A stretch of DNA of 64,000 bases, from assembly GCF_003315205.1 (NCBI RefSeq), contig NZ_QNRR01000006.1, positions 1-64,000 on the forward strand, written 5' to 3'. The notes beneath the pieces are model-generated. The model saw only the letters and a list, made by a program, of their open reading frames with translations. It was not told the origin of the DNA and did not search any database. The stretch comes from Roseimicrobium gellanilyticum. GTDB taxonomy: Bacteria; Verrucomicrobiota; Verrucomicrobiia; Verrucomicrobiales; Verrucomicrobiaceae. The translations under genes and the position numbers were made by a program. Below, piece by piece: positions 3,036 through 23,223 of this stretch. Each line of letters starts with the position of its first letter. The first letter of the stretch is position 1.

Positions 3036-3113
3036 ACAACCGCGGACAGCCCGCAGAATTTCGTTGCCACCTCGCCACCCCACCGCCACTTTCCCCGTCA
3101 CATACTCACTCAT

Positions 3114-3195
3114 GCCTGAGTGGCGGAATTGGTAGACGCGCCAGACTTAGGATCTGGTTGGGAAACTAGTGCAGGTTCGAGTCCTGTCTCAGGTA
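3114..3195 (+). tRNA. tRNA-Leu (anticodon TAG)
   Basis: Cloverleaf read directly. Acceptor stem GCCTGAG (3114-3120) pairs with CTCAGGT (3188-3194; the outermost pair is G-T). The anticodon arm is CCAGA CTTAGGA TCTGG, giving anticodon TAG. A long variable arm typical of leucine tRNAs follows (TTGGGAAACTAGT), then the T arm GCAGG TTCGAGT CCTGT. CCA is not encoded. Confidence 0.95.
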
Positions 3196-3234
3196 CTTGT
3201 TTGGTTTGGAATGAAGAAGATTCCTGAGCCGAGT

Positions 3235-20803: not shown

Positions 20804-21586
20804 TCAGAGCAGTCCCTCATTGATCACCCGCGTCACTGCCGTGGTCCGTGTCTCCACGCCCAGCTTCGTGAGGATGTTGCGGACATGCACGTTCGCCGTG
20901 CGCACGCTGATGTTGAGAATGGTGCCGATCTCGCTGTCGCGCTTGCCTTCCACCATCCACGACATGACTTCGCTCTCACGGCGCGTCAGGCCCAGATCGC
21001 GCAGCTTGGCGTAGTCGAGCGTCGCTTTCTTCGCCTTCTTGGGCGCCACTTCGCTGAGCAACAAGTGCGACTCGTAGGCGGTGACGACATGCGGCGCCAG
21101 CAGCGATGCCACGAACAAATCCTCATCCGAATAGTCGCGCCCGCCCCGGTTCAGTGTCATTCCACCAATGCCGTTGCTCGCGTGGATGGGAATCACGATT
21201 TGGTGCTTCACCTCCGCCTCGCAGAAGACCTCATTGTACAGATGCGTCTTGCGCAGATCCTGCTGGCTGATCAGGTCGCTGATGCGCATGCAGTCGCGAC
21301 TCCCTTCTATCAGGTATGGAAACGCCGGATGCTCAAACGGCACCAGCTCCCCCACACGCTGCTGGATGGCGACACGCTTGGCCTCGGGAAACGGGATGTT
21401 CTCCCAGATCAAATGGGATCCATCCCGCCCATAAATTTCGAAGGCGCAGCAGATGTCCTCAAAAAGCATGCCTGCCGCCTCAAAAAGTCTGCCGGACAGC
21501 TCTCCCTGTCCGTGCGCGTGCATCAAACGTGAGGCTTCTGTCACTCGCTTCCAAGTATCTGCGGGGAGACTGACCATAATTTGCAC
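20804..21586 (-). CDS. LuxR-type transcriptional regulator
   Basis: A 260-residue regulator. The C-terminal LuxR helix-turn-helix is clear at ~195-258 ('LGLTRRESEVMSWMVEGKRDSEIGTILNISVRTANVHVRNILTKL'). The N-terminal part (~20-190) resembles a GAF/autoinducer-binding-type sensor ('IVIPIHASNGIGGMTLNRGGRDYSDEDLFVASLLAPHV'), so a small ligand is likely. No receiver domain and no partner kinase are seen. The MFS efflux gene follows on the same strand. Confidence 0.85.
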   Translation of the reverse strand: MQIMVSLPADTWKRVTEASRLMHAHGQGELSGRLFEAAGMLFEDICCAFEIYGRDGSHLIWENIPFPEAKRVAIQQRVGELVPFEHPAFPYLIEGSRDCMRISDLISQQDLRKTHLYNEVFCEAEVKHQIVIPIHASNGIGGMTLNRGGRDYSDEDLFVASLLAPHVVTAYESHLLLSEVAPKKAKKATLDYAKLRDLGLTRRESEVMSWMVEGKRDSEIGTILNISVRTANVHVRNILTKLGVETRTTAVTRVINEGLL

Positions 21587-21779
21587 GAAAAAGCACGTGC
21601 TGGGCCATGATGCGGCGCGGACTAGGCAAAGGCAAGCCGGAACGATTCACGTCCTAAGCAAAGTTGCTTATATAAGAAAGTTCTAACTCCATCGTCTTAC
21701 CTCCTGCCGTATCAGAGGGTAACCGCTGATGCGGCTCCATCACTGGTGAGATGGAAGACATAATATGCGCATAGAAATT

Positions 21780-21854
21780 AATTCCCGACTTTTTGGTATT
21801 GGGGAGGGAATTGTTTCGGTGGGCGTCCTGGGAAACCGGGACGCCCGCTTTTTT
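21780..21854 (+). promoter_or_regulatory. Two-hairpin leader upstream of glutamate dehydrogenase, second hairpin is terminator-like
   Basis: Hairpin 1: AATTCCC (21780-21786) with GGGAATT (21806-21812). Hairpin 2: GGGCGTCC (21821-21828) with GGACGCCC (21839-21846), then GC and six T residues (21849-21854). It ends 70 bases before the gdhA start. No plus-strand gene lies upstream, so the terminator shape suggests either attenuation of gdhA or the end of a small RNA. The remainder of the gap (21587-21779 and 21855-21924) shows only a short CCATC/GATGG hairpin near 21736-21753 and AT-rich stretches at 21665-21690. Confidence 0.6.
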
Positions 21855-21924
21855 GCATGATTTCAGGCCGGGACGACTCCGGGCGTGCGATTTGCCAACG
21901 TTCGCTTGCCCGAAGGTGAGTGGC

Positions 21925-23223
21925 ATGGATAATCCGCCCAAAGTCAGCCCCATTCGCGCCATGCAAGAAATGCTCCTGGCCAGTCCGGTCTTCAAACAGG
22001 CCGCCGCGCAGTACGACCGCGCCGCCGAATTCCTGAACCTCAAGCCGGACACCCGGGAACGCTGCAAATGGCCCAAGCGGCTCATCTCCGTGTCCGTGCC
22101 CGTTCGCATGGACGATGGCTCTCTCCAGATGTTCTTCGCCCACCGGGTACAGCACCACCTTTCCCGTGGCCCGGTGAAGGGTGGTCTGAGGTACCACCCC
22201 TCGGTCGACATCGGAGAGGTAGCCGCGCTGGCTTCGTGGATGACGTGGAAATGCGCCCTCGCGGGATTGCCCTTCGGCGGCGGGAAGGGAGGCATTGCGT
22301 GCAATCCGCAGGCCATGAGTCCGCCGGAGCTGGAGCGACTCACCCGCCGCTTCACCCAGGAGATGATCCCCTTCATCGGCCCTCAAATCGACGTGATGGC
22401 GCCCGACGTGGGCACCAATGAGCAGGTGATGGCCTGGATGGTGGACACCTACTCCGTGCATGTGGGCTCACTCGAGCCAGGAATTGTGACTGGCAAGCCC
22501 CTGGGACTCTATGGGTCCAAGGCGCGGCGTGAGGCCACCGGCCACGGCGTGGCCTTCCTCGCCATGCTGGCCATCGAAAAGCTCGGCATGCAGGTGAAAG
22601 ATGCCACCGTGGTGTTGCAGGGCTTTGGCAATGTAGGCAGCTACGCCGCCCGGAATCTCTCCATGAACGGGGCGAAAATCATCGCTGTGGGTGACGCCAC
22701 CGGTGCGGTGTACAACGCCAGGGGACTCGATACCCGCCAGCTCATGCCGTACGCGATCGAGCACCGCGGCGTGGCAGGCTTTCCCGGAGGGGAGGCGATC
22801 CCTGCCGAGGAGCTGCTGACCTTGGAGTGCGACATCCTCATTCCCGCTGCCCTGGAGCGCGTGATCACGGAAGAAAACGCCAGCAAGCTCCGCTGCAAGG
22901 TTCTGGCGGAGGGTGCCAACGGCCCCACCACCACCGAGGCAGACGCCATCCTTGAGGCACGCGATGACATCTTCGTGATCCCGGACATCATGTGCAACAG
23001 CGGCGGCGTGATTGTCTCCTACTTCGAGTGGGTGCAGGCGCTGCAGCACATGTCCTGGACGGAGAAGGAGGTCCTGCAAAAGCTCGAGTCCATGCTCGCC
23101 GCCAGCTTCCGTGAAGTCCAGACCCTCGCGAAGCAAAAGAACCTGCCCCAGCGAGTGGCCGCCATGGCCCTTGGCGTGCAGCGCGTGGCAGAGACCAAAG
23201 AATTGCGCGGACTTTATCCATAA
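21925..23223 (+). CDS. gdhA: Glu/Leu/Phe/Val dehydrogenase (glutamate dehydrogenase)
   Basis: A 432-residue enzyme interconverting glutamate and 2-oxoglutarate plus ammonia. Visible: '[41 protein letters not shown]' region (~82-125) with the catalytic lysine in [16 protein letters not shown], '[19 protein letters not shown]', and an NAD(P) Rossmann segment '[17 protein letters not shown]'. Its length (~430) is that of the hexameric class. The start at 21925 (MDNPPKVSP) is set because the frame upstream runs through the leader hairpins. The specific cofactor is not determined; a C-terminal extension is absent. The next plus-strand gene (PEPCK) is 95 bases away. Confidence 0.95.

Follow-up and report, generated by a model that had tools for sequence, protein, structure and literature searches.

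A predicted small RNA gene between a divergent LuxR-type regulator and gdhA in Roseimicrobium gellanilyticum

Two hairpins upstream of the glutamate dehydrogenase gene (gdhA) of Roseimicrobium gellanilyticum are best read as a predicted stand-alone, single-copy small RNA gene of ~85 nt with its own terminator, a reading to which we assign a probability of roughly three in four. They lie in a 64,000-base stretch at the beginning of contig NZ_QNRR01000006.1 (hereinafter the window), where they had been noticed from the letters alone and interpreted as an attenuator or riboswitch of gdhA or, alternatively, as the end of a small RNA. Our analysis supports the second of these interpretations better than the first, and what emerges is probably a new, ordinary, lineage-specific small RNA encoded beside gdhA. 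The features of the locus are as follows:

20804..21586, minus strand: divergent LuxR-type (GerE) transcriptional regulator, luxR (Pfam PF00196, E 1.9e-16)
21731..21767, plus strand: presumed promoter/operator, a conserved stretch ahead of the RNA; 21734-21763 identical (30/30) in the congener
21768..21856, plus strand: predicted small RNA gene; putative start ~21768-21772, end in the T-run 21849-21854
21774..21817, plus strand: hairpin 1; 12 pairs, loop GACTTTTTGGTATTGGGGA, in which three of the five changes between the species lie
21818..21854, plus strand: intrinsic terminator; stem of 14 pairs, T6, and a GNRA-type tetraloop that is GAAA in the window and GCAA in the congener
21906..21933, plus strand: promoter-like pair TTGCCC-16-GATAAT, kept with equal spacing in the congener; candidate gdhA promoter
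21961..23223, plus strand: glutamate dehydrogenase, gdhA (Pfam PF00208, PF02812); probable start 21961, not 21925

Results

A conserved non-coding block that ends at a terminator

The genome from which the window comes (G000) measures 7.93 Mb, and its gdh relatives include many verrucomicrobial records; the sole congener among the genomes searched (G001) is represented by one contig of 7,957,748 bases, in which the block is flanked by luxR and gdhA in identical order. Identity between the two species is 69% over 21587-21660, 95.2% over 21731-21856, 48% over 21857-21900 and 83% over 21901-21960, the conserved block ending sharply, from 95% to 48%, at the T-run of the terminator. Over coding sequence the corresponding figures are 80% for luxR and 87% for gdhA, a second comparison giving 88% for the luxR-type gene. 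The predicted RNA itself is 95.5% identical to its congeneric counterpart, with four substitutions and a single one-base indel in an alignment of 90 columns. Hairpin 1 has three of these five differences in its loop; the terminator loop carries another, being GAAA here and GCAA in the congener, and the last replaces a G-C pair by G-U. None breaks a predicted pair. With only two species, 95% identical, the changes are too few for a covariation test.

As a control, we measured identity in 100-base windows over the 26,319 of the 64,000 bases that could be aligned to 80 kb of the congener, leaving out BLAST pieces shorter than 150 bases. These windows averaged 83.6% identity (sd 6.2), and 11 stretches contained one of at least 95%: nine are in long reading frames, one is a tRNA gene (3072-3198; Rfam match 3114-3195) and one is the hairpin block (21726-21860), whose best 100-base window reaches 98/100. 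Because the tRNA gene and this block are the only two stretches outside long reading frames to attain at least 95% per 100 bases in the 26,319 aligned bases, the non-coding block is, by this measure, kept like a functional RNA gene.

Folding recovered both hairpins that the original prediction had described. The AATTCCC/GGGAATT pairing is real and is contained in hairpin 1, whose loop of 19-20 bases is G/U-rich and exposes the sequence UUUUUGGUAUUGGGGA. The perfect 8-bp terminator hairpin followed by T6 is likewise present, as a GGGCGTCC/GGACGCCC run within the 14-pair stem (21818-21849) that is capped by the tetraloop and leads into T6 at 21849-21854. The RNA folding that had been proposed as a check, carried out on 21760-21930, gave -76.7 kcal/mol as against -55.9 for shuffled sequences (z = -5.39; none of 200 shuffles equally stable), and the congeneric counterpart gave z = -5.14. 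The terminator, with energies of -29.5 and -26.6 kcal/mol in the two species, retains its 14-pair stem and T6 at the 3′ end in the sister species. A scan of 14-33 kb found 15 terminator-like sites, and since shuffles of that stretch give about as many (mean 14.7), such counts by themselves prove nothing, yet the site at 21818-21849 stands out as the one with the most pairs among the 15. The block is, in sum, a conserved and structured non-coding sequence with its own boundaries (95% identity over 21731-21856, 48% after the T-run, z of -5.4 and -5.1).

The upstream element and the divergent regulator

The claim that no plus-strand gene precedes the hairpins, leaving the terminator with nothing upstream to terminate, is borne out: the neighbour is the minus-strand LuxR-type regulator, and the listed plus-strand frames upstream are antisense to that gene or short, none of them plausible as genes. 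Between the regulator and the RNA, the stretch 21731-21767 holds a 6-bp dyad, TCCATC-N8-GATGGA (21736-21755), and a -10-like CATAAT (21759-21764), and the alignment with the congener shows no difference in the 34 bases preceding the RNA. A consensus scan of 451 bases found no clear -35 box or consensus promoter for the RNA. We presume this stretch to be the promoter/operator of the small RNA, from which transcription would start near 21768-21772. As the RNA adjoins luxR and the dyad lies just upstream of it, the arrangement suggests that the LuxR-type regulator may control the small RNA.

A further dyad, TTACCTC...GAGGGTAA (21697-21722), is kept in the sister species, as is TCCATC-N8-GATGGA; the divergent LuxR-type regulator may have binding sites in the two.

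The reach of the conservation to ~40 bases upstream of the RNA would also fit a region of regulatory DNA. On such an account the whole block would be operator/promoter DNA shared by the divergent luxR and gdhA, the hairpins would be incidental, and the terminator would serve to insulate gdhA. The 34 identical bases with their dyad and the adjoining LuxR-type regulator speak in its favour; however, the high conservation takes in hairpin 1 and the terminator hairpin alike and goes no further than the T-run, the changes between the species respect the predicted pairing, and a hairpin ending in a T-run is not what one expects of an operator. We accordingly consider regulatory DNA of this kind highly improbable as the explanation of the block.

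A short protein gene is the least probable of the explanations we considered. In the window, two frames run through the block without a stop, a 31-codon frame from ATG 21765 and another from TTG 21793. The former is preceded, 7 bases before its ATG, by a Shine-Dalgarno-like GGAAG (21753-21757) that by eye is kept in the congener, and in the latter, again by eye, three of the four substitutions are silent before the two peptides part. The one-base indel nevertheless breaks the ATG frame, which counts in favour of the RNA; because it leaves a product common with the congener in the first seven residues only, a small protein or leader peptide in the 31-codon frame appears unlikely. The TTG frame, for its part, stops in the congener but runs into gdhA in the window, and one of its four changes alters a residue. 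For either frame, the changes are too few for a real coding test.

The probable start and promoter of gdhA

The original prediction took ATG 21925, 70 bases past the terminator, as the start codon of gdhA. That codon is absent in the sister species, which has AGG at the equivalent position and an in-frame TAA just downstream, and because of this 21961 is the probable shared start. In the congener the open frame comprises 429 residues and sets in one residue ahead of the match, past residue 3 of the 21925 reading; 21961 is the first ATG that the two species share. Of 16 near-full-length matches from other genera (52-60% identity), 14 begin at residue 13, corresponding to 21961, or later.

ATG 21925 sits just before the -10 part of the promoter-like pair TTGCCC-16-GATAAT. 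As a consensus match this pair is weak, matches of 9/12 numbering one against 0.3 expected in 451 bases and four against 4.6 over 19 kb, and its weight comes from its position and its conservation. Because this conserved pair (21906-21933) precedes the shared start, gdhA is probably transcribed from beyond the terminator. A transcription start past 21854, which had been named in advance as speaking against a leader, is thus approached: the probable start lies there, as judged from a promoter-like pair that is weak but conserved. Our analysis corrects both the likely start of gdhA and the likely position of its promoter.

In another genus of the family, inspection by eye of three gdh loci (L007, L009 and L014) revealed a shared TTGGCA-N16-TTTA(A/C)T directly before gdh, with CTGAGACGTTC in the spacer, which looks like a gdh promoter.

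The proposed attenuator or riboswitch of gdhA

The leader hypothesis holds that transcription from ~21770 is terminated at 21854 or continues into gdhA, according to nitrogen, glutamine or 2-oxoglutarate status. The position of the terminator is compatible with it: the probable gdhA start follows ~107 bases further on, in the same orientation, and no plausible plus-strand gene comes before the terminator. The sequence that had been proposed to form the alternative pairing (21869-21885), however, lies where the intergenic region is conserved least (21857-21900, 48% identical), and the conserved promoter-like pair stands between the terminator and gdhA. When the terminator stem was barred, the folding energy worsened by 17.2 kcal/mol in the window (-85.6 to -68.4) and by 13.6 kcal/mol in the congener (-85.9 to -72.3); the replacement folds keep hairpin 1 in both species, but the terminator arms pair differently, and no shared, mutually exclusive antiterminator fold was found between the window and the congener. 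The indel throws the 31-codon frame, potentially a leader peptide, out of register between the two species. At Rfam gathering thresholds the whole window yielded no known aptamer family, one tRNA being its only match, and the loci searched in other genera yielded no counterpart ahead of gdh. With no conserved alternative pairing, no counterpart at the other gdh loci searched and no aptamer match, we reject an attenuator or riboswitch as the best reading and regard it as improbable, if somewhat less so than a block of regulatory DNA; conservation, moreover, stops at the terminator itself. Antitermination that depends on a protein is conceivable as a variant.

Apparent restriction to the genus

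We built a covariance model from the two sequences, that of the window and that of the congener, and searched with it at several depths. The window's own genome contains one copy. In the family, 2 of 68 genomes (those of the window and its congener) exceed 100 bits, and 28 of the 68 have something at E <= 1; the next best match scores 33.6 bits, and a second, weak match in the congener scores 26.9 bits. At the level of the order, 4 of 386 genomes have matches at E <= 5e-4, of which the full matches are again these two; the other two score 34.7 and 33.6 bits; each is a terminator that immediately follows a reading frame, and both were rejected as homologues. Both the family and the order search used stricter filters, by which very diverged homologues could be missed, the order search scoring 11 candidates per genome among those listed. 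Within the genomes searched, the small RNA is confined to the genus.

A covariance search upstream of gdh in relatives, suggested along with the original prediction, gave no significant match in any of 52 gdh loci (out of 108 besides the two of this genus), nor in seven luxR-homologue loci, 59 loci in all; the one match listed (14.2 bits, E 0.73) is on the opposite strand. An absence of conservation upstream of gdhA, which was to count against a leader, is approached in the loci searched of other genera; the congener keeps the block. With blastn at E <= 10, all 68 genomes of the family have matches, the best outside the genus among the matches listed being of 24 bases (E 0.0165). Five weak places were inspected, three of them in the window's own genome; among the five, a 19-base exact match (C4:241818) does not extend, and C6:126002 is a terminator, described below.

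Scanning for terminators upstream of gdh at 46 loci (L003-L020, L032-L033, L035-L053, L055-L061) returned five, at the window's own locus (L003) and at L007, L013, L014 and L032. We rejected the latter four as counterparts: a plus-strand frame ends shortly before each, and they look like ordinary gene ends. A similar terminator, seen by eye at L009 and below the cut-off of the scan, is also behind a plus-strand frame.

Elsewhere in the genome of R. gellanilyticum, another terminator (C6:126002, in G000:C6:125700-126300, L146) has the same CCGGGAAACCGG apex, and similar GGGAAACC apices occur in weak covariance matches of related genomes. Shared terminator apices of this sort may explain the weak Rfam matches described below.

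Candidate targets

Complements of the hairpin 1 loop, allowing at most one mismatch, were sought in both Roseimicrobium genomes with the reversed pattern as control. They occur at five places in that of R. gellanilyticum and at 10 in that of the congener, the RNA gene itself being counted in each, versus one and two for the control; this is somewhat commoner than the control and is not used as evidence here. When the 13 other places were compared, a single orthologous pair emerged, inside coding sequence, and conservation of the protein can account for it. Duplex energies against the starts of five neighbouring genes produced no firm target among them. The best was luxR, for which 3.6% of 2000 random 100-mers were as good, this being one test out of five; the paired stretch differs by eye in the congener, and we do not take luxR as a duplex target on this evidence. 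The loop pattern had no matches in viral contigs (0), and the block had none in plasmids.

Discussion

The picture that best accommodates these observations is of a small RNA whose transcription would begin near 21768-21772 from the conserved upstream element, yielding ~85 nt that comprise one 12-pair hairpin with a G/U-rich loop of 19-20 bases and then a strong intrinsic terminator. Transcription of gdhA would be separate, from its own promoter beyond that terminator. Pairing between the loop of hairpin 1 and target RNAs is the likeliest way in which the RNA may act, and would proceed without Hfq or ProQ. A more specific proposal, that this genus-specific RNA, situated between luxR and gdhA and working with the divergent LuxR-type regulator, sets expression of the glutamate dehydrogenase/PEP carboxykinase neighbourhood through its G/U-rich loop, is speculative and in our estimation unlikely.

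One review table (PMC9029176) counts 8 distinct small RNAs across the Planctomycetes-Verrucomicrobia-Chlamydiae group as a whole, and among the open-access papers searched we found none on regulatory RNA in Verrucomicrobiota as judged by titles and the opening lines of abstracts. A candidate with clear bounds and a strong terminator offers a clean entry point into the use of small RNAs in such bacteria.

Comparison with known systems

At relaxed thresholds the block gives weak matches to a few Rfam families, and all matches other than the best are at or below 18.6 bits. The Moco riboswitch (RF01055) reaches 18.6 bits (gathering 36), with model positions 76-112 of 135 aligning on the terminator stem, and mini-ykkC (RF01068) reaches 13 bits (gathering 32) in a match lying partly on the end of the terminator and partly on unconserved sequence. 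The best relaxed-threshold match is sX12 of Xanthomonas (RF02231), full-length at 32.2 bits against a gathering score of 106. Both RNAs have one hairpin followed by a terminator looped by GGGA(A/G)ACC; however, the matching letters are mostly those of the terminator, hairpin 1 shares pairs and few letters, and the phylum is a different one, so that, on the sequences compared, sX12 is a resemblance of layout and not a case of family membership.

Intergenic trans-acting small RNAs with intrinsic terminators form a general class, for which Hfq, ProQ and CsrA are the usual partners. The predicted RNA departs from this class in that the genome of R. gellanilyticum yielded no Hfq, CsrA or ProQ, and any protein partner would thus be another protein. 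In other respects it is like members of the class: it is intergenic, preceded by a conserved upstream element, ~85 nt long and built of a stem-loop and a Rho-independent terminator, with a narrow taxonomic range and a 31-codon frame that is not kept.
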